Assembly: GCF_001006305.1 (NCBI RefSeq)
Contig: NZ_LBHJ01000001.1
Location: 868,001-932,000 of the forward strand
Direction: 5' to 3'
Source of the DNA: Silvibacterium bohemicum
Lineage (GTDB): Bacteria; Acidobacteriota; Terriglobia; Terriglobales; Acidobacteriaceae
Length of the DNA: 64,000 nucleotides
Shown here: positions 16,463 to 28,758 of the stretch, piece by piece
Numbering within the stretch: position 1 is the stretch's first letter
How the letters are laid out: each line of letters opens with the position of its first letter
Notes under the pieces: model-generated
Database searches by the model: none
What the model was told of the DNA's origin: nothing
What the model saw: only the letters and a program-made list of their open reading frames with translations
Position numbers and translations under genes: made by a program

Positions 16463-17581
16463 TCCATCTTCTCCTCGTGACTTCGTCCCGGTCAGCAGAA
16501 TAATCCTGATTTTGGTCGAAGTTTAGCATGGGGATAGTTCGGGCAAAATACCACCTACGAGCGATCGAAGAATGACGGCAGTTGCAACGTAGTCCCCAGG
16601 AAGTTCGGTCCCGGCGATGTTCTTAAGGGTGGCGAAGTGGCGAATTTTCCATCAGCCTGCGCAGGGGATGAAATCAGAGTGCTTCTGGAAATGATCCGTT
16701 TGGGAGTTCAGGGAAGAGCCGTCAAAGGCAAATCGTAGAGGGAGGCGCTGCTTGTGGCGATCTCCTTTGTCGGGTATGGGGCCGGACGATCGCTCGGTGG
16801 GATAGAAAATACATCCGCTGGGAAGTACGGCTAGAGTGACGGAGGCCCAAAATGGTAATAGGAAAGTAACCTACGTGCGGAATTGGCGGCTCCATACCTC
16901 GCCGGAAGTGTAAAATCCTCGAAGAACGGCGTAAGCGGTATTTGTATCAATGACAGTGACAAATGCTCTGCGGGTTACCAAAAAAAATCTCCTTTATTAC
17001 CAAAGGGGAATGGTATCTTGCAGGAACTGCCCGCTATTCTCCGTAGAAGAAAGATTAACGCGATAGGCAAAACACAAAGACAGAGTCGGTTCGGTAGTTC
17101 ATAGTCCACAGTTCGAAGAGTTTTCGCCAAAGGTCGCATCGTATTTTTTGACCCACTTGCTGGTTCCTCGGATCTGCGTTTTACATGGGCTGCGCTTGAA
17201 TTTTTAACTTTGCTTTCGAAAGTAAGAACAATTCAGGCGTACGATCATCTGCCTGCTTCAAATTTGAGTCCTTTCTATGGACTCATAATGGCGAAGCCCT
17301 GTTCAGATCAATGCGGTTTCCGTGGAATGATGTTCAGCTTCTGACCATCTCCTTGCAAAAGTGAGTTCACGGATGACAGCTGGCCACACCGCTCCTTCTC
17401 ATCTACGCGAAGACCTCTTCCCTACATTCATCAATGCGAGCCCTGTCGTTTTCTCGCACAGTTTTCACTTTCGTCGTTGCTCAAGCTCTCTTTCAAGTGT
17501 GCTAACTGCGTCCCGCCCTTCGCAGCCCGCGGGGAACTGAGCACGGCCTATTGGCCGCTGAGCGTTAAGGAGTCTGCTTCC
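16463..17581. other. Long intergenic region upstream of the priming sugar transferase
   Basis: No recognisable gene lies in these 1.1 kb. The 3' half is less GC-rich than the surroundings. An open stretch at 17106-17342 lacks a start codon and resembles no family I know. A 73-codon frame at 16883-17104 has no supporting features. No sigma-54 element with correct spacing was found. Promoter elements for the downstream gene are probably here but could not be assigned. Confidence 0.5.
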
Positions 17582-19099
17582 ATGGCAACAGTCAGCCTCG
17601 GTAATCTCTCAAGACAAAAATCGTTTTCAGGAAAAGCCGGAAATTTCGGCGCAGTAGCTACGAGCACTTCCGTTCGGGCCTCGCTCACGACACTCCTGAT
17701 GATGTTCTCGGATGTCTTTGGCGTACTTTTCGCCCTGGTCCTTGCCTTGAACATCGGCCTGGAGAGAGTTCTCGGGACGGGAAGCAGCGATCTCTGGCGG
17801 GTAGTGGGTCCCAAGACGCCGCTCTCCTGGGAGCTCGGCTATCTGGCGTGCTTTGTCGTTGCTCTACTCCTGGTCAACTATCACCAGGGACTGTATGGAC
17901 ACACGCTGGGCTATAGTGCTCTCTACGAACAGCGCCGAACTGTCCAATCCGGGCTCATCGCCGGCTTGCTGCTGTGCGGGGCCTTGTATTCCACCCACAA
18001 CACCGCCATGTCGCGGGCAGTGGTGTTTTACTTCATCGCCCTGAGCACGGCCTTTACCTGCATCACCCGCGGAGTATGGCGCTTTCTGATGTTCCGCCGT
18101 TATGAACGGGGCGTTGATGCGAGCAATGTGGTCATTCTCGGGGCGACCGGCATCGGGATGGCCTTGCACCGGCAGATTGTCGGCAATCGCCATCTAGGCC
18201 GGGTCTTCAAGGGCTTTGTACACTCGTCGGGCAATAGCGCGAACTCGAAAACCAGCGCCGAGCTCAGTCTGGGTACGCTCGATCAGCTTCGCTACCTGGC
18301 CCGCCAGCACTTCATCGACGAGATCATCATCGCCGAGCCTTGCAGCATGGACGTGACCCGGGACCTGATCGACCTGGCTCGCGAGCTGAAGCTCGAGATC
18401 CTGGTAATCCCCGGCTTCTATGACGGCATTACGCCCGAGGCTCCCATTGAGTATGTGGGAGATTTCCCGGTCGTGGCCATTCACCGCCGCGACGAGAAGG
18501 TGGCCGCTCTCTTTCTGAAGAGAGTCAGCGATGTTGTTCTGTCCTGTGCCGCGCTTTTCGTCTCGTTGCCGGTCTTGCTGACGGTTGCTGTGGCGATCAA
18601 GTTGGATTCGCCGGGCCCCGTCCTCTATCTCTCGGAGCGCATCGGCAAAAAGGGGCGTGTCTTCCGGTGCTTCAAATTCCGCACCATGGTGGCTGACGCC
18701 GAGAAGAGAAAACAGGCGCTGGTCGGACAAAATGAGCGCACCGGCATTCTCTTCAAGATGAAGAACGATCCGCGAATCACGCGCGTGGGTGCCTGGTTGC
18801 GGAAATACAGCCTGGATGAAATCCCGCAGTTTCTCAATGTTCTGCGTGGAGATATGAGCCTGGTTGGTCCTCGGCCGCCCCTCGCCACCGAAGTGGAGAA
18901 ATACGAACTGGAGCACTTTCGCAGATTGGAAGTGCTGCCCGGCCTGACCGGCTTATGGCAGGTGCGCGCCCGGCAGGATCCCTCTTTCGAGAGGTACGTG
19001 GCGCTGGATCTAGCATACGTCGAAAACTGGAGCTTGTGGCTCGATCTCAAAATCCTGGTTCACACGGCCGAGGTCGTTTTCCGGGGAACCGGCTGCTAG
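17582..19099 (+). CDS. Undecaprenyl-phosphate sugar phosphotransferase (WbaP/CpsE family EPS priming enzyme)
   Basis: The ~505-residue membrane protein has four to five TMs in the first ~150 residues, a Rossmann-like CoA_binding_3 segment (NVVILGATGIGMALHRQIV) and a C-terminal bacterial sugar transferase domain. Key motifs there are KRVSDVVLSCAALFVSLPVLL, DSPGPVLYLSERIGKKG, FKFRTMV, RYSLDE-like RKYSLDEIPQFLNVLRGDMSLVGPRPP and PGLTGLWQVRAR. It should transfer a sugar-1-phosphate from a nucleotide sugar onto undecaprenyl phosphate, the first step of repeat-unit assembly. The ATG at 17582 is preceded by AAGGAG with 9-bp spacing; the longer frame from 17477 has no such site. Its distance from the sigma-54 operon suggests separate control. 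Confidence 0.94.
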   Translation: MATVSLGNLSRQKSFSGKAGNFGAVATSTSVRASLTTLLMMFSDVFGVLFALVLALNIGLERVLGTGSSDLWRVVGPKTPLSWELGYLACFVVALLLVNYHQGLYGHTLGYSALYEQRRTVQSGLIAGLLLCGALYSTHNTAMSRAVVFYFIALSTAFTCITRGVWRFLMFRRYERGVDASNVVILGATGIGMALHRQIVGNRHLGRVFKGFVHSSGNSANSKTSAELSLGTLDQLRYLARQHFIDEIIIAEPCSMDVTRDLIDLARELKLEILVIPGFYDGITPEAPIEYVGDFPVVAIHRRDEKVAALFLKRVSDVVLSCAALFVSLPVLLTVAVAIKLDSPGPVLYLSERIGKKGRVFRCFKFRTMVADAEKRKQALVGQNERTGILFKMKNDPRITRVGAWLRKYSLDEIPQFLNVLRGDMSLVGPRPPLATEVEKYELEHFRRLEVLPGLTGLWQVRARQDPSFERYVALDLAYVENWSLWLDLKILVHTAEVVFRGTGC

Positions 19100-19320
19100 T
19101 TCCGGACTGCAATTCACGAAACGCCACCTTACATATGTGCGCCTTCGGCTTCGATGCGAAAGTATCGGGGCCGTTTTGCTTGTGGCCGCTTCGTTATCGC
19201 ATCCTGACGTCCGATTGGTTGTGACCTGCATCGCGATGGGTCCTGAGGCCCGGGGCTGAAACCCTTATTTCGCTCCGAGTTTATTCCCCTCACTAAAGTT
19301 CGGGGCTCCCTCCGAAAGCT

Positions 19321-20835
19321 TCAGTCGTGGAGTTTGGGGCGCTTTCCGACGGGAAGGGCGGCTTCGACGATGCCGCCTTCGAGATGTTCGACAGGGTAGT
19401 TCTCTGGTTCGAAGCTAGGCCAGTCTAATTCGTGCGCAGCCGGTGCGAGCTCTTCGAGAAGCTCAGGCCCGATATCGACGGTCACGCTGACCTCGGCCGC
19501 AGCCGATTTCCAGGTGCTCATGCCTCCCATGACCAGGAGAAGAGGCAGGATCATGGAACTATTGAGCAGGTTGTCTACGGCGGTGATCAGAATGGCCGCC
19601 GCCAGCGCGTGACGCAAGTTCAGGTACTCGATATCGGACTTGGTAAGCGGAAACCAGATCGCGCGAATCACTGGAACCACCTGAAGAGCCTCCAGCGCCA
19701 CCAATCCTAGAATTCCGTACATCCCGAAGCCCAGCAGCCACAATCCCCATGGCCGCAGCGTGCCTCTCCGCCACCAATCCCACTCGCCATATCCCAGGAT
19801 CGGCCGATCGAGCGCGATGCTCACGTGACGCTCGTCCTGTCCCAGACGCCATCCCAGCGAGCCCCGTCCAATCTCTTTCAGGAAAGCCGCGGTCGCGTGC
19901 GCCGCAGGATTATGCTGTACCAGGCTGCGGAGCGATACCACGTTGGTCAGGCGTAGTCCCGCGAAGAAAATGATACCCACCACGATGAAGATGGCAATGG
20001 CGCGCGGGAAAGTGCGGTGGCTGACGAAGACGAAGGGCAGCAGGATAAAGAGCAGCAGAATGCTGCCTGCTGACTGACACAAAAAGGTCGTCACAAGTAA
20101 AGTGATGGCAACGATGGCAATGGGAATACCGCACACCCGGTCGATGATGCGTTTGGCCCAGAACCAGGTCGCCACCAGAGCCGCGGTAGCCATCCATATA
20201 CCCAATTGATTGCCATTCTCGAGCAATCCAATGGGGCGGTATCCGATATATCTTTGCGCGCCGACCCAGCGGTAGGGCAGATATCCATAGATGTGCGCGT
20301 AAAGCTGCGGTCCCTTCCAGATTTCAAACAGGCAGATAGGGACGTAGAAGAGGCCGGCGATGACAAACGCCTGGGCCACAAAGCGAAGCGATCCGGAATC
20401 GCAGAAGTAAAGGCGCCCAATAAAGTAGGGAACTCCCCAGGCCAGCAGCTGATAGGTCTCGGCGCGGAACATTTCGCCGAGAGGCAGGGCGTTGGCAATT
20501 CCGGAAAGTACGGGTGCCATACACCAGAGCAGCATTGGCATGTCCCAGAGCGTGAGCTGGAAGCGGCGGATCGCATGGCGGTCGAACAGAAAGAAACCGA
20601 GCAGACCGCAGAAACCGATGACAGTGGCTTTGGTGATGAAATAATCCGTCGCTATCCCGGTGCCCAGAATCCAGTAGGGCAACGGATCGGAGGTCGGAGT
20701 GTAATGAGCGGCCGGCAGTACCGCCCATCCTCCGATGAAGATCAGGACAAAGGCTGTTCGCAGAGAATAACGGGAGCAGAAGAACAGGCTGACCGGAATC
20801 CAGAGCAGCAGCGCCAATAAGGGTGGAACAGTCAT
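19321..20835 (-). CDS. O-antigen ligase/Wzy-polymerase-like membrane protein
   Basis: The 504-residue protein has ten or more hydrophobic segments and a long loop around residues 300-360 holding GRGSLGWRLGQDERHVSIALDRPILGYGEW. The periplasmic R-x-x-x-W...GxG pattern is typical of Wzy_C/O-antigen-ligase-type proteins. The C-terminal ~60 residues are hydrophilic and acidic. In this context it is the best candidate for the Wzy polymerase working with the Wzc-like length regulator and the WbaP-like priming enzyme. It lies convergent to the priming enzyme, 221 bp away. Sequence divergence in this family keeps the function provisional. Confidence 0.8.
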   Translation of the reverse strand: MTVPPLLALLLWIPVSLFFCSRYSLRTAFVLIFIGGWAVLPAAHYTPTSDPLPYWILGTGIATDYFITKATVIGFCGLLGFFLFDRHAIRRFQLTLWDMPMLLWCMAPVLSGIANALPLGEMFRAETYQLLAWGVPYFIGRLYFCDSGSLRFVAQAFVIAGLFYVPICLFEIWKGPQLYAHIYGYLPYRWVGAQRYIGYRPIGLLENGNQLGIWMATAALVATWFWAKRIIDRVCGIPIAIVAITLLVTTFLCQSAGSILLLFILLPFVFVSHRTFPRAIAIFIVVGIIFFAGLRLTNVVSLRSLVQHNPAAHATAAFLKEIGRGSLGWRLGQDERHVSIALDRPILGYGEWDWWRRGTLRPWGLWLLGFGMYGILGLVALEALQVVPVIRAIWFPLTKSDIEYLNLRHALAAAILITAVDNLLNSSMILPLLLVMGGMSTWKSAAAEVSVTVDIGPELLEELAPAAHELDWPSFEPENYPVEHLEGGIVEAALPVGKRPKLHD

Positions 20836-20983
20836 GGATCGGTCCTATTCAGCGCTAGTTCCGGAATTCCCACGGTCAAACAACGAATCATCGCTGGCAC
20901 AAGTGGCTTGCACCGGCAAAATGCCGCTCCGATGGGGGATTCAGGATGCGGTGTAGTAGGAAATCCGATCTAATTTAACCAGA

Positions 20984-21538
20984 ATGACCGCTATAACGCT
21001 ATTCCCCATTTGGTGGTCGCTCACCCGAACCACAGGTATCACCGCCTATTTTGTGACTGGCCTGTGCTGCGTGTTGGTCTGGCTGCGAAACCGATCCTCT
21101 CGTCAGCGGCATGCTATCTCCGGGCTGGCGATCCGGCTGGCTCTGATCGAATTCCTTTTTTGCGCCGACATGATTTTAGAATGGCGTCTGGCGCTGCACA
21201 CCTTCTTTGTCAATCTGTTCATGGAATACAATCTGTACAACCAAAGACACTCCATGCAGCTTGGCCTGCTCTTTGCTCTCGGCTGTTTGCTGCTCTTCAT
21301 GCTTCTCAGTGTCTATCGCCGATTCCAGCGGCGGACAGGCGCTTTTCTAGCAGTAAGCGGGGTCTTGTTGTCTGCAACTTTATGGTTAATGGAAATCATT
21401 TCCATCCACGAGGTGGACGCTAGTCTGTATCATCTGGTCGATGGCGTGATGGTTATTGCGCTCTTGTGGGTCCTGGCTTGTTCGCTGACTTTGGCAGGGA
21501 TCGGCCTGGAGGCGCGGCTCGCTGCACGTCAAGATTGA
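20984..21538 (+). CDS. Hypothetical membrane protein
   Basis: The 184-residue protein has about five predicted TMs (roughly 10-32, 45-65, 95-120, 130-150 and 155-175) and a basic loop after the first helix (RNRSSRQRH). I do not recognise a family. It starts 148 bp from the divergent Wzy-like gene and lies 118 bp upstream of an ABC exporter on the same strand. It may be co-transcribed with the exporter, or be part of the EPS region. Confidence 0.65.
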   Translation: MTAITLFPIWWSLTRTTGITAYFVTGLCCVLVWLRNRSSRQRHAISGLAIRLALIEFLFCADMILEWRLALHTFFVNLFMEYNLYNQRHSMQLGLLFALGCLLLFMLLSVYRRFQRRTGAFLAVSGVLLSATLWLMEIISIHEVDASLYHLVDGVMVIALLWVLACSLTLAGIGLEARLAARQD

Positions 21539-21656
21539 ATCTGTCGATAAGTTTGAAGAAGTGAGAAGTTAGGCGACTTTTCGGATCCGCGGGCCTTCAT
21601 GGTTTTAGCGCCGTTGATCTAGATCGTGACTTTCGGAGTTTTGGGGCTTCGCGACG

Positions 21657-23576
21657 ATGGGACAAAGTGCAAGTGCTACAGCTACTGCCTCGCCCGATCA
21701 AGAGGAGGAAGTAAAGAAGGAACCGAAGGTCGAAGTGCGTAAGGCGCTCCCGGGTGTTTGGGCCATGCTGCGTCCGAAGCGTGGATTGCTCCTGGCCGGA
21801 CTGATATTGATCGTCATCAACCGCATCGCCGGATTCGCACTCCCTCTCTCTACCAAGGCGCTGATCGACTACGTGATCGGCAAACACATGAGCCATCTGC
21901 TTCTGCCCATTGTGGGAGGGTTGCTGCTGGCGACGTTAATCCAGGCTCTTACCGCCTTCGCGTTGTCGCAGCTTCTCTCCAAGGCGGCGTGGCGGCTTAT
22001 TACTGACCTCCGCATCCAGGTGCAGGAGCACATCGGGCGCCTGCCCATCGCATACTACGACGCCAACCGCACCGGTGTGCTGGTCTCCCGGATCATGTCC
22101 GACGTAGAGGGCCTGCGCAACCTGGTGGGCACGGGCCTGGTGGAGTTCCTGGGTGGCGTTCTTACCGCGGCGCTCACTTTTGTCGTTCTGCTGTGGATCA
22201 ACATCAAGCTGACATTGATGGTGTTCGGCATCCTGGCCGTCTTCATCGCAGCAATGAAGTGGTGGTTCGGAACTCTGGGCCCATTGTTCAAGAGGCGCGC
22301 GGTGATCTTTGCCGACGTCACCGGCCGGCTCACGGAATCGATGGGAGGCGTTCGTGTAGTCAAGTCCTATCGCGCTGAAGCCCGCGAATCTGCAGTGTTT
22401 GCAAAGGGCGCGAGGCAGCTGCTCGATAACCATCTGCGCGGCATCACCAATAACTCGCTGATGGGAATGTCCTCGACCGTGGTCATTGGGATAGTCGCCT
22501 CCATCGTCATGTTCTTTGGGGCGCGCGGCATTCTCGCCGGCAGCATGACGCTGGGGAGCTACATTACCTACACCGTCTTTCTGGCGTTCATGGTCGCTCC
22601 CCTCTTTCAGGTGGTATCAATTGCGACGCAGCTGACCGAGGCTATTGCCGGTCTGTCCCGCACCCGGGAAGTACTTGCTGAAAAAGATGAGGACAGCGAT
22701 CCTCGCCGCACCGGCCGCTTTGGAAGTACGCTCGCCGGTGAGGTGATCCTTCAGGATCTGCGATTCTCTTATCAGGCTGGCAAACCGGTGCTGCACGGCA
22801 TTTCCTTCGTCTCGAAGCCGGGGAGCGTGACCGCTCTGGTCGGGCCGTCAGGTTCGGGCAAGTCAACCATCATCAACCTGATCAATGCATTTCACACACC
22901 GGACAGCGGAGTGATCACGGTGGACGGAGTCGACCTCACAACCGTGGAACTGGGAAGCTATCGTTGTTTTCTGGGCGTGGTGCTGCAGGAGTCGTTTCTC
23001 TTCGACGGCACCATCCGCGATAACATCTCGTTCTCGCGTCCCGATGCGACGTATGAAGAGATCCTCGAGGCCGCGCGTATTGCCCGCGTCGACGAGTTCG
23101 CCGAGCGCCTTCCCGAAGGCTCCGACACCATCATCGGCGAGCGCGGGGTGAAACTTTCTGGCGGACAGCGCCAGCGCGTATCGATTGCACGCGCCATCCT
23201 CGCCGACCCGCGAATCCTCATTCTGGATGAAGCGACCTCGAGTTTGGATTCCGAGTCCGAGGCTTTGATTCAGGAAGGGCTCGCTTACCTGATGCGCGGA
23301 CGAACCACCTTTGTCATCGCTCACCGTCTCTCTACAATCCGCCAGGCCGATCAGATTCTCTTTCTCGAAGACGGCTTGATCCGCGAGCAGGGAACACACG
23401 AACAGCTGATTGCATCTCGAGGACGCTACTACGATCTCTACACCCGGCAATATTCACTGGAGAGCAATCTCTTTCTTGCTCCCGGTGAAGGAGACCAGAT
23501 CGTGACCGAAGAGGATGGCTTCAATGGTCGTCCGGACCTCCCCAGCTTCTCTCAGGCACTTCGCGGCATTCGCTAA
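21657..23576 (+). CDS. ABC transporter, fused permease and ATPase (MsbA-like exporter half)
   Basis: The 639-residue protein has six TMs in residues ~40-335 and a nucleotide-binding domain from ~360. Walker A is VGPSGSGKST, the Q-loop VLQESFLFDG, the signature LSGGQRQRVSIARA, Walker B ILILDEATSSLDSESE and the H-loop IAHRLSTI. All ATPase residues are present. It should act as a homodimeric exporter. No N-terminal C39 peptidase domain is present, so it would not itself trim a leader peptide. It is 180 bp upstream of the NHLP-like peptide gene on the same strand, suggesting it may export that pathway's product; a lipid or EPS-linked role is the alternative. Confidence 0.93.
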   Translation: MGQSASATATASPDQEEEVKKEPKVEVRKALPGVWAMLRPKRGLLLAGLILIVINRIAGFALPLSTKALIDYVIGKHMSHLLLPIVGGLLLATLIQALTAFALSQLLSKAAWRLITDLRIQVQEHIGRLPIAYYDANRTGVLVSRIMSDVEGLRNLVGTGLVEFLGGVLTAALTFVVLLWINIKLTLMVFGILAVFIAAMKWWFGTLGPLFKRRAVIFADVTGRLTESMGGVRVVKSYRAEARESAVFAKGARQLLDNHLRGITNNSLMGMSSTVVIGIVASIVMFFGARGILAGSMTLGSYITYTVFLAFMVAPLFQVVSIATQLTEAIAGLSRTREVLAEKDEDSDPRRTGRFGSTLAGEVILQDLRFSYQAGKPVLHGISFVSKPGSVTALVGPSGSGKSTIINLINAFHTPDSGVITVDGVDLTTVELGSYRCFLGVVLQESFLFDGTIRDNISFSRPDATYEEILEAARIARVDEFAERLPEGSDTIIGERGVKLSGGQRQRVSIARAILADPRILILDEATSSLDSESEALIQEGLAYLMRGRTTFVIAHRLSTIRQADQILFLEDGLIREQGTHEQLIASRGRYYDLYTRQYSLESNLFLAPGEGDQIVTEEDGFNGRPDLPSFSQALRGIR

Positions 23577-23756: not shown

Positions 23757-23996
23757 ATGTTCACTGACAAGGGAAAGGGAAACGCTGGAATGCAAAAATT
23801 CGATATTCTTTATCAGAAGGTACTTTCTGATCCTCACTTTCGCCAGGAACTCGTCCTCCGCCCAGAACAAGCCTTAAAATCGATTGGAATCGATCCAACG
23901 CCCGAGGTATTGCAATTACTGAAGAACATCGAGACGGCGGTAACCGCGCTGGAAGAGGATCTGCAGGGACCAGCACAAACGGTAATGCTGACCTAG
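23757..23996 (+). CDS. Small NHLP-like leader peptide (putative RiPP precursor)
   Basis: The 79-residue peptide contains FDILYQKVLSDPHFRQ followed by a segment with PEQALKSIGIDPTPEVLQLL. This fits the SDPxFRxxLxxxPxxAL...G pattern of nitrile-hydratase-like leader peptides (NHLP clan, Os1348-like) used by RiPP systems. The tail after the leader is short, with Ser/Thr but no Cys anywhere and no double-Gly cleavage site. GAAGGG at 23743-23748 with 8-bp spacing supports this start; an internal ATG at 23790 would give 68 residues. The genes that follow encode an isoprenoid-synthase-like protein and a LanM-type dehydratase, so a precursor or carrier role is inferred. The frame of the next gene overlaps its 3' end. 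Confidence 0.78.
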   Translation: MFTDKGKGNAGMQKFDILYQKVLSDPHFRQELVLRPEQALKSIGIDPTPEVLQLLKNIETAVTALEEDLQGPAQTVMLT

Positions 23997-24166
23997 GCGG
24001 CTACGTCTGGGACTCGGATTTTTTCACTACAGCTCAACACGCTGCCCGCACTGTCGCAGCTGACATCGGCAAAACAAATTCAACACTGGCGGGCGAGACA
24101 CTCAAGTGGATCGCCCGTCGTTGCGATGTAGCTCATCTGGAAAAATACATCGCCCATCCTGAGGCG

Positions 24167-24919
24167 ATGCCGCTGCTGGCTCTGCCGTGGTGGTTGGAAA
24201 AGAGTATTCGCGGCGAAGTTGACGCGGAATTTCAATCCAGCCTGATGGTTTCGAGCGTGCACGGATACTTCTTCATCCGCATGCTCGATGATCTGATGGA
24301 CGGGCACGAGGTTGAGCCGGCCAGTCTTCCTGCCTTGCATCTCTTCAGCTTCCGCTTTCAGTCTTCCTACTTTCGCTTTTTTCCTGTGAGCGATTCCTTC
24401 TGGAGGCACTTCGAGCAGAACCTTGCGTTGACGGCCGAGTCAGTTTCAACCGACCACACGCTGAAAGAAATCTCCTCCGAAGACTTCCTCGAAATCACTT
24501 CGCGCAAATCGTCTGCCGCGCTGATCCCGATGGCGGCAGTGTGTTGCCGCTACGGCCGCGAGGACCTGCTGCCGGCCTGGGAGCAGTTTCTATCGCTCTT
24601 TGCCCGGTGGCACCAGATGCGCGACGATGTCCTGGATTGGAGCGAGGACTACGAAGGCAGCCACGCCACATGGATTCTCTGCGAAGCGCACCGCAGGAAA
24701 GCGCCAGAGGAAACCGTTGCAATATGGATGGGACGGACTGGCCTCCATTGGGCGGCGGGTGTGATGGATAGCTGGATGGCACAGATCAAAGCTTCCGCTG
24801 CCGACCTCGACAGCCCGGAGCTGGTGCGCTATCTCGATGCGCGTGAGGCGGCTTTTTCGCGGCAGATGAGGGCGAATCTACGTCTCGCCGCTCTTTGTGA
24901 ATCGCTGTTGAAGCTTTAA
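24167..24919 (+). CDS. Class I isoprenoid synthase-like protein (two DDxxD motifs)
   Basis: Counted from this ATG the protein has 250 residues and is all-helical in character. DDLMD lies at 41-45 (FFIRMLDDLMDG) and DDVLD at 153-157 (WHQMRDDVLDW). Paired Asp-rich motifs on facing helices bind Mg-diphosphate in trans-prenyltransferases and related class I terpenoid enzymes. The start is uncertain. The same frame is open back to ~23832, reads like protein from about 24000 (GGYVWDSDFF..., LKWIARRC...) and has no ATG, GTG or TTG before 24167. Only a weak GAGG sits at the chosen ATG. The missing N-terminal helix may be translated from an unusual start, by frameshift from the peptide gene, or be lost to a sequence error. 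A prenyl donor or terpenoid product is inferred only. Confidence 0.72.
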   Translation: MPLLALPWWLEKSIRGEVDAEFQSSLMVSSVHGYFFIRMLDDLMDGHEVEPASLPALHLFSFRFQSSYFRFFPVSDSFWRHFEQNLALTAESVSTDHTLKEISSEDFLEITSRKSSAALIPMAAVCCRYGREDLLPAWEQFLSLFARWHQMRDDVLDWSEDYEGSHATWILCEAHRRKAPEETVAIWMGRTGLHWAAGVMDSWMAQIKASAADLDSPELVRYLDAREAAFSRQMRANLRLAALCESLLKL

Positions 24920-24948
24920 TACGCAGCAATTCATTTAAGCTTTTCAAA

Positions 24949-26385
24949 ATGCGCGCCAATGCACAGCTCTCTCTTCTCGCCGAACGAATTTTTCCCAGTT
25001 CGTCGCTCTCCAATCTGATTTCGTCCCAGCTCCTCGAAGATCGCGTGCGTAATGCGGTGAGGCGCGTACGAGATAGCAGCGGACGAGAGCAGTTGAGTGA
25101 TGAGGCATGGCATCAGGCGGGTGAGTCGCTATCGACTACGCTTGCGTGGCTGCAGATCTTTCGGGTCTCGGATGATCGCTTGCGGGGCTACGTCGACTCC
25201 TGGGTTCAGGCGCAATGCGAGATGCTGCATCGGCTCACTGCCGATCGTGCGGAGATCGAGAGGCGCTTCGGACTGAATGCCGAGCGGATTGCTTCGCTGG
25301 GTCTCGACCTCTCTGACCGGCATAGCGGTGGACGCACGGTGGCATCCTTCACCTTTGATTCAGGACTGAAGCTCGTCTATAAGCCGCGTCCTCTGGGCAT
25401 CGAAGCATGGTTTGCAGAATTGCAGCGTACGCTGAATACGCTGGGTGCTCCGCTGCCCTTCCGCGGGCTCGAAGTAGTCTCGCGGGATAGTTATGGCTGG
25501 ACAGAGTTCGCAGTTCATCGCCATTGTCAGGATGAGGCCCAGCTACAGCGTTTCTACCGTAAGGCCGGAGCGCTGCTTTGCCTGTTGCACGTTCTGCGCG
25601 CAACGGACTGCCATTTCGAAAACCTCATTGCATGCGGAGAAGACCCGCTCTTTGTGGATGCGGAGACGCTCTTTCAGCCTGCGATCACGGCTAACGAGGG
25701 CATCTCAGTTTTGCGCACCGGGATGCTGCCGCGGCTTGCTCCCATGCTTCCGTTGGCTGGTTCTCCGGCGGCCGCCGACATGGGGGCGTTGAGCTGTGTT
25801 TCCGTCCAGACGATTCCAATTCCGCTCCCCGCTTTGAATGGATCTCCCGCCCGAACGGAGATGGTCCTGATGGAGCCGGAGGCAAATCTGCCATTTCCTC
25901 CTGAGCAGGAACGGAACCCGCAGGTCTACGTCGAAGAGATGATCGACGAATTTCGCCAGACCTGGCTGTTTCTCGCCGAGCATAAGGATTCGGTAATGGA
26001 AGCACTCGAAGGTGCTCGCCTGCAGCGTATTCGATACGTCTTCCGGGATACCTTGAGCTACTACCAGGCGATGGTTGCGGCTCTGTCACTCGGCAATCTC
26101 GATGGCGTCGTCCTGCCGCGCCTGCCTTCATCGAAGACCGCCTTTGCGGCGTTGGAAGCCGCGGAACTCTCGGCTTTGCGGGAGTTCGACATCCCTCGCT
26201 TTACGCTTTGCGCTGCAGAATCCGGATTGCACGGCATTGGCGAATGTTTTGCTCGAACAGGATTCGAGTTAGTCCGCGATGCGGTGAAAAACCTTACCGC
26301 AGAGGCTATGGATGCGCAGATCGCGGTGATTCGCCTGTCGTGGGGGCTGTACGGCGCGGCCAAGCGGGTTGTAGTTCAAGCCTAG
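24949..26385 (+). CDS. Stand-alone LanM-type (DUF4135) lanthipeptide dehydratase-like protein
   Basis: The 478-residue protein matches the dehydratase half of class II lanthipeptide synthetases: LSDRHSGGRTV, LVYKPRPLG, SYGWTEF, ATDCHFENLIACGEDPLFVDAETLF and SVLRTGMLPR. The kinase-like active-site set is complete: D123/H125, K145, D220/H222/N225 and D237, with H-to-K and N-to-D spacings of 20 and 12. FRDTLSYY at ~365 could supply the Arg used for phosphate elimination. The C-terminal LanC zinc cyclase domain is absent and the stop is genuine. These enzymes phosphorylate Ser/Thr of a precursor and eliminate phosphate. Here the nearby peptide has no Cys, consistent with no cyclisation. It follows the isoprenoid-like gene by 29 bp. 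Confidence 0.88.
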   Translation: MRANAQLSLLAERIFPSSSLSNLISSQLLEDRVRNAVRRVRDSSGREQLSDEAWHQAGESLSTTLAWLQIFRVSDDRLRGYVDSWVQAQCEMLHRLTADRAEIERRFGLNAERIASLGLDLSDRHSGGRTVASFTFDSGLKLVYKPRPLGIEAWFAELQRTLNTLGAPLPFRGLEVVSRDSYGWTEFAVHRHCQDEAQLQRFYRKAGALLCLLHVLRATDCHFENLIACGEDPLFVDAETLFQPAITANEGISVLRTGMLPRLAPMLPLAGSPAAADMGALSCVSVQTIPIPLPALNGSPARTEMVLMEPEANLPFPPEQERNPQVYVEEMIDEFRQTWLFLAEHKDSVMEALEGARLQRIRYVFRDTLSYYQAMVAALSLGNLDGVVLPRLPSSKTAFAALEAAELSALREFDIPRFTLCAAESGLHGIGECFARTGFELVRDAVKNLTAEAMDAQIAVIRLSWGLYGAAKRVVVQA

Positions 26386-26493: not shown

Positions 26494-28758
26494 ATGATTG
26501 GCCAAACCATCGCACATTACCAGATTCAGGAGCTCCTGGCAGAAGGGGCGATGGGCGTGGTGTACAAGGCTCGGGATCTGAACCTGGAACGGTTCGTGGC
26601 TATCAAGTTTCTCAAGCCGCAGCGGTCTGCAGACGATGCAGCGATGGGCCGCTTCATCCACGAGGCGAAGGCAGCTTCCTCACTCGACCATCCCAATGTA
26701 TGCACCATCTACGAAATCGAGAAGGACGCCGATGGGCGGTTCTTCATCGTCATGGCCTACTACGAGGGCGAGACACTTCGCCGCAAGCTTGGCCATGGCC
26801 CCTTGCTGATCGAGGACGCTCTCCGGCACACGGTCGATATTGCGCAGGGCCTCGCAAAGGCCCATCGTCACGGGTTGATCCACCGCGATATCAAGCCGGA
26901 GAATGTGATCGTCACCACGGAAGGCGTGGTTAAGATTCTGGATTTCGGCCTGGTAAAGCTCAGCCGCGATCCCGCTCGGAGCAAACGTGAAGCGGTGGTG
27001 GGCACGGTGGGCTATATGTCGCCGGAGCAGATCGAAGGGCGGGCGGATCATCGCAGCGATCTGTGGTCGCTCGGGGTGGTCTTCTACGAGATGGTCACCG
27101 GACGGCGTCCCTTTGTGGGAACGCCATCGCAGGTGATCGAAGCCATCGCGCACGGAGATATTCCCCGCGCTTCGGAACTGCGCCACGACATATCGGACGA
27201 AATTGAGCAGGTGATCATCCGCTGCCTGGCCCGCAATCCCGTCGAACGCTATCAGCGAGCGGAGGAGCTGCTTGCCCACCTTCATGCTTTGCGCCATGGA
27301 GTAGGTTCGCCCACTTCGATTCAGGTACCGGGCGTCAGCCCTGCTCCTATGGCTATCGCAGTGCTGCCTTTCACCAATGTAGGCGGAGGTGAAGAGGCGG
27401 AGTACTTTAGCGACGGTCTCACTGACGAGCTGATTCATCTGCTCTCTCAGCTCAAAGGGCTGCGCGTCGTGTCGCACACCTCGGCCTTCGAGTTCAAAGG
27501 CAAGTCACAGGACGTGCGAACCATTGCCGAACGGCTGAACGTAAATACCGTTCTCGAAGGCAGTGTGCGCCAATCGGGTCACAAACTTCGCGTCATGGTG
27601 CAGTTGACCGATGCCGTCCACGGCTATCATCTCTGGTCGCAGAAATACGATCACGAAATGAAAGATGTCTTCGCCATCCAGGAGGATATTGCCGTTTCGG
27701 TGGCCGGCATGTTCGAGAAGAAGTTGAAGGCTGAGGTTGCGCCGCTACGCCCGCGCTACACCGGCAACGTCGACGCTCACGGGCTCTATCTCAAGGGACG
27801 ATACTACTGGGGGCTGCGGATCCCGGAAGCTTCACGCAAAGGGATGCAGTGCTTCGAGCAGGCCATCGCGGTAGATCCTATGTGCGCGCCTGCGTACGCC
27901 GGGCTGGCCGACTGCTTCGTCAGCCTGGGTTTCTGGGGCGTGATGCCTCCCAGCGAAGCATGGGCTCGCGGCCGTGAGCTGGCTCTCAAGGCGCGGGAGA
28001 TCGATCCCTACTTGGCCGAGGCGGAGATTGTGTTAGCCAAGTGCTTCCTGTTCAACAACTCGGATTGGCGTCAGTCGGAAGAGCTGGTGCTGCACGCCAT
28101 CGAACTCGACCCGGTATTTTCAGGGAGCCATTTCTTCTATTCCATCCTGCTGCTGCAGTCGGGTCGGCATGAGTCTGCGCTGCTTGAGCTGAGGACGGCG
28201 CGGCAGCTCGATCCGCTCTCCTCGAGCATCTGCACAGGCATTGCCTGGGCCCATTACTATGCCGGGAATTACGAACTGGCGATCGAGCAGTGCGGCAAGG
28301 TCTTCGATCTCGCTGCGGATTACGTCGAGGGCCTCGCCTGCATGGGGCTGGTCGCGATCCGGCAAGGAGAGTTCGAGACCGCGCTCTCGTGGCTGGAACG
28401 CGGCGTTGCGAGCTCCGGAAACAGTCCTCTGGGAATGGGTTTTCTAGGCTATGCCTATGCGCTGGCTGGACGCCCAGCGGATGCCAGAGTGATCCTGATG
28501 CAGTTCAAGGATGTGGCCAAGCAGCGATATGTTTCGACCATTGCTCCGGCGTTGATTCACATCGGGCTCGGCGAAGAACAAGAAGCGTTGGAGTGGCTCG
28601 ACAAGGCCTACCAGGGAAGGGATGCCTTCCTGGCCTACGCCAAGATCTTTCCGCCCTTCGATCCCCTGCGAGAGACACCGAAATTTCAGGAGCTGCTCGG
28701 CAAGCTGGCGCTGGCCAGCAGCGAAGAACAGCTCACCAGCGAAGTCCTGGCACTTTAG
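26494..28758 (+). CDS. Soluble Ser/Thr protein kinase with TolB-like and TPR regions
   Basis: The 754-residue protein begins with a PknB-type kinase (residues ~9-265): LLAEGAMGVVYKA glycine loop, AIKFLK lysine, HRDIKPEN catalytic loop, DFGLVKL and GYMSPEQ. A TolB_N/FlgO-like segment follows (~285-410, IAVLPFTNVGGGEEAEYFSDGLTDELIHLLS and VLEGSVRQSG). TPR-like helical repeats run from ~425 to 720 (AYAGLADCFVSLG, LAEAEIVLAKCF and similar). No TM helix is visible, unlike many PknB homologues. This fusion is common in Acidobacteriota. It starts 109 bp after the dehydratase gene on the same strand and could share its transcript, but nothing ties it functionally to that pathway. Its stop overlaps the convergent HAD gene by four bases. 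Confidence 0.93.
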   Translation: MIGQTIAHYQIQELLAEGAMGVVYKARDLNLERFVAIKFLKPQRSADDAAMGRFIHEAKAASSLDHPNVCTIYEIEKDADGRFFIVMAYYEGETLRRKLGHGPLLIEDALRHTVDIAQGLAKAHRHGLIHRDIKPENVIVTTEGVVKILDFGLVKLSRDPARSKREAVVGTVGYMSPEQIEGRADHRSDLWSLGVVFYEMVTGRRPFVGTPSQVIEAIAHGDIPRASELRHDISDEIEQVIIRCLARNPVERYQRAEELLAHLHALRHGVGSPTSIQVPGVSPAPMAIAVLPFTNVGGGEEAEYFSDGLTDELIHLLSQLKGLRVVSHTSAFEFKGKSQDVRTIAERLNVNTVLEGSVRQSGHKLRVMVQLTDAVHGYHLWSQKYDHEMKDVFAIQEDIAVSVAGMFEKKLKAEVAPLRPRYTGNVDAHGLYLKGRYYWGLRIPEASRKGMQCFEQAIAVDPMCAPAYAGLADCFVSLGFWGVMPPSEAWARGRELALKAREIDPYLAEAEIVLAKCFLFNNSDWRQSEELVLHAIELDPVFSGSHFFYSILLLQSGRHESALLELRTARQLDPLSSSICTGIAWAHYYAGNYELAIEQCGKVFDLAADYVEGLACMGLVAIRQGEFETALSWLERGVASSGNSPLGMGFLGYAYALAGRPADARVILMQFKDVAKQRYVSTIAPALIHIGLGEEQEALEWLDKAYQGRDAFLAYAKIFPPFDPLRETPKFQELLGKLALASSEEQLTSEVLAL

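Follow-up and report, generated by a model that had tools for sequence, protein, structure and literature searches.

A conserved gene set for an Os1348-type peptide, a PalQ-like enzyme and a lone LanM-type dehydratase in Silvibacterium bohemicum and its genus

We have analyzed a stretch of 64,000 nucleotides (the window) of the acidobacterium Silvibacterium bohemicum (assembly GCF_001006305.1, contig NZ_LBHJ01000001.1, positions 868,001 to 932,000), the genome of which comprises 6.46 Mb in 25 contigs. Between positions 23757 and 28758, on the + strand, it carries genes for a small peptide, an isoprenoid-synthase-like protein, a LanM-type dehydratase and a Ser/Thr kinase, in that order. A preliminary description had read the first three as a run belonging to a locus of the kind that makes ribosomally synthesized and post-translationally modified peptides (RiPPs). 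Our analysis confirms the run, with all genes on one strand and head to tail, and supports the RiPP-like character of the locus. The features are the following (trans-IDS, trans-isoprenyl diphosphate synthase; FARM and SARM, first and second Asp-rich motif):

23757..23996, + strand: Os1348/NHLP-clan precursor peptide, 79 amino acids from the first ATG (NF038399, 43.1 bits, cut-off 40; residue counts)
23991..23993, + strand: codon of the C-terminal Thr, proposed modification site, suggested by the C-terminal pattern of LanM-adjacent peptides
23999..24919, + strand: PalQ-like class I (trans-IDS-like) candidate peptide prenyltransferase (eight-member family; hhalign to a Paenibacillus relative; weak PF00348)
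24287..24301, + strand: FARM, DDLMD (D[DN]xxD in 8/8 members)
24623..24637, + strand: SARM, DDVLD, then W and a conserved Asp (DDxxD in 6/8)
24949..26385, + strand: LanM-type dehydratase domain alone (DUF4135), 478 amino acids (PF13575, E=1.6e-81; PDB matches LicM2 and CylM; active-site columns)
26494..28758, + strand: Ser/Thr kinase with a TPR part, 754 amino acids, a conserved fourth gene that recurs with the trio

The LanM and isoprenoid-like proteins were used as queries against 200 genomes of the family. The window LanM matched 16 of them, the five best (E 9e-81 or lower) being those of the window's own genus, and within the genus the isoprenoid-like gene was confined to these same five genomes. 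A larger profile search detected it in five of nine genomes of the genus; the four without it are 72-88% complete, and no LanM match was found in the two of them that were searched for it (G175 and G189). The order peptide, isoprenoid-like gene, LanM, kinase is kept in all five genomes that have the isoprenoid-like gene, so that the trio recurs in the neighbourhood comparison that the preliminary description had proposed, and a loss of the three-gene order was not observed in these relatives. Details of the layout vary: the G117 locus has two peptide genes, in G141 the isoprenoid-like gene overlaps the peptide gene and in G066 it starts directly after the peptide stop codon. Since identity to the window across these loci is merely 47-59% for the isoprenoid-like protein and 37-40% for LanM, the kept gene order is informative beyond chance. 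The linkage of the trio plus kinase is conserved. The remaining 11 LanM-bearing genomes have longer open frames (561-1057 amino acids), and none of them is among the seven genomes matched by the isoprenoid-like protein in the family search. In the whole source genome DUF4135 has a single match, and so has the Os1348 model.

Seven aligned relatives of the peptide begin near its second Met, at 23790, which is the probable start and would give 68 amino acids. The window peptide contains no Cys and no Trp and its C-terminus reads ...TVMLT. An Os1348-type peptide adjoins the isoprenoid-like gene in 8/8 Acidobacteriota loci, whether LanM is nearby or not, upstream of it in seven and downstream in G086. 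The NF038399 cut-off of 40 is exceeded by the peptides of the window, G066, G159, G381 and G086, while four of the nine Acidobacteriota peptides fall below it (G141, both of G117, and G205). The tails that follow the Os1348 domain are very short, and their length and sequence vary between relatives. The six peptides that accompany the lone LanM share the ending [LIV]-[ST] (MLT, CVS, QLT, NIS, AVS and CIT), and Cys is present in two of them. The peptides without LanM nearby end in QIC (G086), QPA (G205) and KPY (G381), that is, in Cys, Ala and Tyr. As a control we used the 21 Os1348 matches in the 200 genomes: seven adjoin the isoprenoid-like gene (six with LanM, one without), and from the other 14 we excluded G102, whose glycosyltransferase-like frame has 477 amino acids and a final Ser. 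Only one of the 13 controls, some of which are weak matches or long proteins (e.g. G173 and G193), ends in Ser or Thr, giving a Fisher p of 2.6e-4, of 7.0e-4 with one peptide per genome and of 7.2e-4 when G102 is included, values that overstate the independence of the peptides. Overlap with the isoprenoid-like gene cannot explain the [ST] ending, because the CIT peptide of G117 sits upstream of another peptide.

The third gene encodes the dehydratase part of a LanM. TIGR03897, a model of 932 positions, aligns only from 102 to 519 and scores 296.5 bits, just short of its cut-off of 304; the match covers the dehydratase part, which indicates that there is no LanC-like cyclase domain. Formation of an intramolecular lanthionine was rejected, as the window peptide has no Cys and its LanM no cyclase. 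A complete DUF4135 active-site set had been claimed, and the nine columns are indeed present in the window; K145, D220, H222, N225, D237, R362, T368 and H125 are identical in all five LanM proteins of the genus. D123, with which the D-x-H pair begins, is kept in four of the five and is His in G066. R362/T368 were matched to the CylM elimination pair R506/T512 by spacing only, the phmmer alignment to CylM covering the kinase part. In the alignment of these proteins the N-terminus of G141 was set by hand and not at any start codon. The residues reported as important in CylM (PMC4550811) have counterparts in 5/5, except for the first residue of the D-x-H pair of G066. LanM also matched 42 plasmid records, and among the matches listed Nostoc NZ_CP117772.1 carries a 1086-aa LanM-type open reading frame (ORF), not a lone dehydratase. 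Separately, a second DUF4135-type group with ORFs of 554-601 amino acids appears in other genera of the family (G052, G167, G062, G033, G104 and G039; L013-L018). The G033 member shows DUF4135 only on a domain scan, and the neighbours differ in the three loci scanned (FtsX-type permease, SpoIIE, cytochrome c).

For the isoprenoid-like protein we aligned eight Acidobacteriota members, leaving out weak or partial matches in G128, G376, G835 and G1068. The two DDxxD motifs of the preliminary description are both present in the window. They are less strict in the relatives, where the first is DNxxD in three of eight members and the second NDLLG in two. Conserved in all eight are D[DN]xxD followed by G, a Lys, and [DN]D-x-x-[DG]-[WC]-x-x-D. 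The spacing from FARM to SARM is 112 residues in five members, 113 in two and 119 in one; it is 117 in a protein of Paenibacillus cellulosilyticus, 119 in one of Tolypothrix and at least 125 in 30/30 canonical trans-IDS of relatives. PF00348 matches the window protein with E=0.0013 and 18.4 bits, and altogether three of the eight members, with a best E of 2.3e-4; scores of 17.9-18.4 bits stand against a cut-off of 27. A housekeeping prenyl synthase was considered and rejected; the source genome has two other PF00348 proteins over the cut-off.

The relatives of this protein outside the phylum came from plasmid searches. A plasmid search with the window protein gave a single record, Tolypothrix NZ_CP050446.1 (26.5% over 60% of the query, E=8e-4), and the gene in question (L101 1-1115, across the record start of a 13-kb plasmid) directly precedes an annotated 'Os1348 family NHLP clan protein'. 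The PalQ-like frame itself has no listed gene there, and its second Asp motif is DHxxD. With the Tolypothrix protein as query one further record appeared, P. cellulosilyticus NZ_CP054613.1 (24%, E=9e-14), in which the PalQ-like gene (L103 5836-8337) precedes five NHLP-like peptides whose penultimate residue is Trp, their ends being WV, WI, WL, WF and WT (e.g. NVRKFVWI); both of the peptides scanned among the five exceed the TIGR03793 cut-off. The profile of the eight members aligned by hhalign to the P. cellulosilyticus protein with a probability of 97.9 (E 5.3e-13), 40 shuffles of that protein giving 0.6 or less; it reached 97.7 with the Tolypothrix protein and 98.8 with the two together. A search of viral contigs led nowhere, and a sequence search of the PDB with the family profile gave a farnesyl diphosphate synthase at E=0.72. 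The class I assignment, a prediction from sequence, draws on the motifs, the conserved Lys, the PF00348 matches in three of eight members and the Paenibacillus and Tolypothrix relatives.

Three further Acidobacteriota genomes (G086, G205 and G381) have the isoprenoid-like gene with an Os1348-type peptide and no LanM within the 17-19 kb of the locus; in G086 a genome-wide search found no LanM either. The G086 locus (G086:C446, L033 8508-12240, minus strand) has in a row the isoprenoid-like gene, a peptide with a C-terminal Cys, a Pyr4-like transmembrane terpene cyclase (PF25129, E=1.3e-24), a 2OG-Fe(II) oxygenase matching NF041706, the cyclophane-peptide oxygenase YhhC (162 bits against a cut-off of 150), and an FAD monooxygenase. 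Flavin monooxygenases typically epoxidise prenyl chains that are later folded by Pyr4-like cyclases (PMC13307353). The locus is thus a candidate RiPP-terpenoid cluster, which may encode a peptide-terpenoid pathway. In G205 a methyltransferase lies upstream of the peptide and isoprenoid-like pair. In G381 (G381:C19, L037 7462-12719) a flavin amine-oxidase-type protein, an Os1348 peptide with a C-terminal Tyr, the PalQ-like gene and a kinase follow each other on one strand.

These loci bear on two other explanations. The preliminary description had suggested a terpenoid built on a peptide carrier, and the Pyr4-like cyclase of G086 lends it some support. The peptide would then be a carrier on whose C-terminus LanM, the class I enzyme and their partners build a small molecule or terpenoid that is afterwards released, the peptide being reused. 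The very short tails after the Os1348 domain fit this idea, as do neighbours that change from locus to locus: G205 has a methyltransferase, G381 an amine-oxidase-type flavoprotein, and G086 the Pyr4-like cyclase together with its FAD monooxygenase and 2OG-Fe(II) oxygenase. However, no residue-adding ligase is found among the four conserved genes, and a precursor whose core is short would account equally for these facts; PalX has a proposed core of 8 residues (DNVRRFFW; PMC10853753). We consider a reusable carrier improbable. Much the same must be said of the possibility that the isoprenoid-like enzyme has a small molecule as its substrate and the peptide is a substrate of LanM only. It would agree with the lack of Trp in the peptide tails and with Ord1, of related architecture, which farnesylates free Trp (PMC13290415). 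Yet the isoprenoid-like gene adjoins an Os1348-type peptide in 3/3 Acidobacteriota loci without LanM in 17-19 kb, and NHLP-clan peptides in Tolypothrix and Paenibacillus. As the peptide persists in the LanM-less loci, it is the peptide and not LanM that is the constant partner of the isoprenoid-like gene, and a small-molecule substrate appears improbable as well.

The reading that we prefer, at about even chances, is that the locus makes a RiPP and that both enzymes work on its C-terminus, LanM by phosphorylating or dehydrating the final Ser/Thr and the PalQ-like enzyme by prenylation. The Os1348/NHLP domain would dock the enzymes, as its family suggests. LanM would use ATP to phosphorylate the C-terminal Ser/Thr and would probably eliminate the phosphate, leaving dehydroalanine or dehydrobutyrine (Dha/Dhb); that this residue is probably phosphorylated or dehydrated follows from the counterparts of the LanM active-site residues in all five proteins, G066 having the exception mentioned. 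The PalQ-like enzyme would bind an allylic diphosphate via Mg2+ at its Asp-rich motifs and would transfer the prenyl group to that terminus, onto a residue other than Trp. We place the acceptor at the end of the peptide by analogy with PalQ, which modifies the last residue of its NHLP substrate and lost activity when that substrate was extended past the terminal Trp (PMC10853753; PMC13290415). We also infer that both enzymes take the peptide as substrate, along with the modification site, the order of the steps and the product. Prenylation of Trp or Cys in the window peptide was rejected, neither residue being present. The prenyl group might be attached to oxygen, to the dehydro carbon or to the carboxylate. 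One specific form of the proposal, which we regard as unlikely as it stands, makes the dehydro residue the acceptor. LanM would form Dha/Dhb, the enamide carbon (an enamine-like nucleophile, cf. indole C3 in PalX) would attack the allylic cation and a C-prenylated C-terminal residue would result; in relatives without LanM the same enzyme would act on Cys or Tyr, and the chain bound to the G086 peptide would be oxidised, and cyclised with the Pyr4-like cyclase.

Several observations weigh against prenylation of a Trp-less terminus. All characterised trans-IDS-like peptide prenyltransferases target Trp according to a 2026 review, and PalQ was inactive on substrates in which other nucleophilic residues took the place of Trp (PMC13290415), while Trp occurs in none of the nine Acidobacteriota peptide tails (the Trp of G086, at residue 17, belongs to the leader) and the G205 peptide ends in Ala, without a side-chain nucleophile. 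The Gln three residues before the SARM, tied to Trp recognition, is kept in six of eight members, the window included (Leu in G159, Glu in G381), although it does not decide the question because a canonical trans-IDS (L069) has Gln there too. The P. cellulosilyticus peptides run one residue past Trp and that of Tolypothrix has an internal Trp in its tail, so that the strict last-residue rule of PalQ may fail in the clan. The placement of the enzyme is itself indirect. The family profile aligns to 30 canonical trans-IDS of relatives weakly (hhalign probability 37.7, 69 columns around the second motif), and as the Tolypothrix and Paenibacillus proteins reach a probability of only 0.5 against them, the link to the trans-IDS fold rests on the motifs and the weak PF00348 matches. 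The window protein is best placed, through the Paenibacillus and Tolypothrix proteins, as a probable distant relative in a PalQ-like clan of NHLP-peptide prenyltransferases. A structure predicted from two sequences was poor (pLDDT 50.8, pTM 0.43), and its best PDB match, at E=0.71, is meaningless at such a low model confidence. The five LanM loci belong to one genus and their C-terminal pattern does not represent five independent origins. Finally, the frame of the isoprenoid-like gene is open from 23831 and its first in-frame ATG is at 24167, but homology to the relatives extends some 50 residues upstream of that ATG and includes a Trp invariant in 8/8. Between both positions the window has no in-frame ATG, GTG or TTG, but there are in-frame codons ATC at 24065 and CTG at 24086. 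The protein might begin at a non-standard codon or arise by a frameshift (one base back) from the peptide gene, or its start might be damaged.

The fourth gene deserves separate treatment. The preliminary description had placed an ABC exporter and a Ser/Thr kinase on the two sides of the trio, and it is the kinase that proved to be conserved with it. A downstream kinase on the same strand, 54.7-69.2% identical, is found in 4/4 of the other LanM loci, and in G117 its reading frame and that of LanM overlap by 4 bases. G381 has a 40% relative behind its isoprenoid-like gene and G086 a 42% relative on the other strand, and in the 19 kb of locus sequence of G205 no kinase was seen. Within the source genome the kinase query gave 23 matches including itself, the next best having 37% identity along 457 of the 754 residues; both halves of the kinase are matched, at 39% and 25%, by an 817-aa frame. 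We take the kinase as a fourth member of the unit, with a probable regulatory or sensing role. Its constancy would also suit a LanM acting as a kinase only, so that the peptide would be a signal with a C-terminal phospho-Ser/Thr tied to the Ser/Thr kinase and any prenyl group a membrane anchor. The His that replaces the Asp of the D-x-H elimination pair in G066 and the histidine kinase found beside PalX/PalQ (PMC10853753) point the same way. Against this, the presumed elimination residues R362 and T368 (CylM R506/T512 by spacing) are kept in 5/5 and D123 in 4/5. We hold a purely phosphorylating LanM to be unlikely.

The exporter, in turn, was rejected as part of the unit, since it stands beside the trio only in the window and G066 (2/5), among polysaccharide-type genes; for G141 the comparison covered 3.5 kb of upstream sequence. 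It is 80% identical between the window and G066, and the other upstream genes are also common to G066 only. The stretch 17477-23576 of the window, with sugar-transferase-like and ligase-like genes and the ABC exporter, is shared with G066 alone among the five, a case of regional synteny and not an extension of the unit. In a Silvibacterium metagenome-assembled genome (L002 550-3254) an AMP-binding enzyme and a male-sterility-type reductase lie just upstream of the peptide on the opposite strand.

Across the nine peptides the final residue changes with the enzyme encoded nearby: it is Ser or Thr where LanM is present and Cys, Tyr or Ala where LanM is not close by. If the proposal is true, it would provide new acceptor chemistry, a natural set for studying the choice of residue and terminal tags for lipidating peptides. 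A dehydro residue as acceptor would be the first non-Trp acceptor for trans-IDS-like enzymes, and the peptide-terpenoid pathway to which it belongs would extend across Acidobacteriota. What the G086 locus suggests is a RiPP-terpenoid hybrid made with a Pyr4-like cyclase, for which ChrPC is a precedent with another cyclase (PMC13290415); hybrids with the Pyr4-like type were not found in the open-access literature among the matches listed.

Among known systems, the class II LanM enzymes CylM and LicM2 have a DUF4135 dehydratase with matching active-site residues, as in the window. Class II LanM synthetases carry in addition a LanC-like cyclase domain, unlike the window LanM, and the window peptide lacks Cys. 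PoyF of the polytheonamide pathway is a stand-alone LanM-type dehydratase acting on an NHLP (proteusin) precursor with a long hypermodified core, and no prenyltransferase is known from that pathway. To our knowledge, ComX/ComQ of Bacillus has neither an NHLP leader nor a LanM. That pair also combines a peptide with a trans-IDS-like prenyltransferase, but the acceptor is an internal Trp and ComQ is without the second Asp-rich motif (PMC10853753). The closest likeness is to PalX/PalQ of Paenibacillus alvei, an NHLP precursor with an isoprene-synthase-fold prenyltransferase, a short core, action at the C-terminus and a kinase gene in the cluster. PalQ has its FARM at D89/D93 and its SARM at D200/D204, spaced by 111 residues against 112 in the window; the P. 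cellulosilyticus protein has the same FARM numbers and its SARM at D206/D210. PalX has a conserved C-terminal Trp with which it ends, the P. cellulosilyticus peptides add one residue to the Trp, and the window peptide has no Trp and a C-terminal Thr. The leader is canonical NHLP in PalX and Os1348 in the window, and the three genes given in the source for the PalX cluster include a histidine kinase and no LanM, in contrast to the LanM and TPR-bearing Ser/Thr kinase of the window (PMC10853753). ChrPC combines trans-IDS-like peptide prenylation with cyclisation of the prenyl group and is a precedent for our reading of G086, although both domains are in one protein, the acceptor is Trp and the cyclase is of another kind (PMC13290415). 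The dehydrazoles (CcaM) share with the window a DUF4135 dehydratase and an NHLP precursor, with dehydration and no lanthionine, but no isoprenoid enzyme is named in the part of the source available (PMC10676384). The prenylated lanthipeptide of MppM/MppC joins LanM and peptide prenylation in one cluster, as proposed for the window, with a ring-forming LanM, an ABBA-type prenyltransferase, a Trp acceptor and a Nif11-type leader (PMC12715784). In the open-access literature (PMC) no paper from 2018 on brought lanthipeptide, prenyltransferase, dehydratase and NHLP together, and among the matches listed we did not find a description of the trio on a Trp-less peptide with a terminal Ser/Thr. The preliminary description's claim of an undescribed pathway must therefore be narrowed to the trio as a whole: a peptide with a class I, trans-IDS-like enzyme is a known kind (PalX/PalQ, PMC10853753), and so is a LanM-type (DUF4135) dehydratase domain with an NHLP precursor (dehydrazoles, PMC10676384). 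What is new here are the Trp-less tails, with an aliphatic residue and Ser/Thr at the end beside a lone LanM and with other ends (Cys, Tyr, Ala) where LanM is not nearby.

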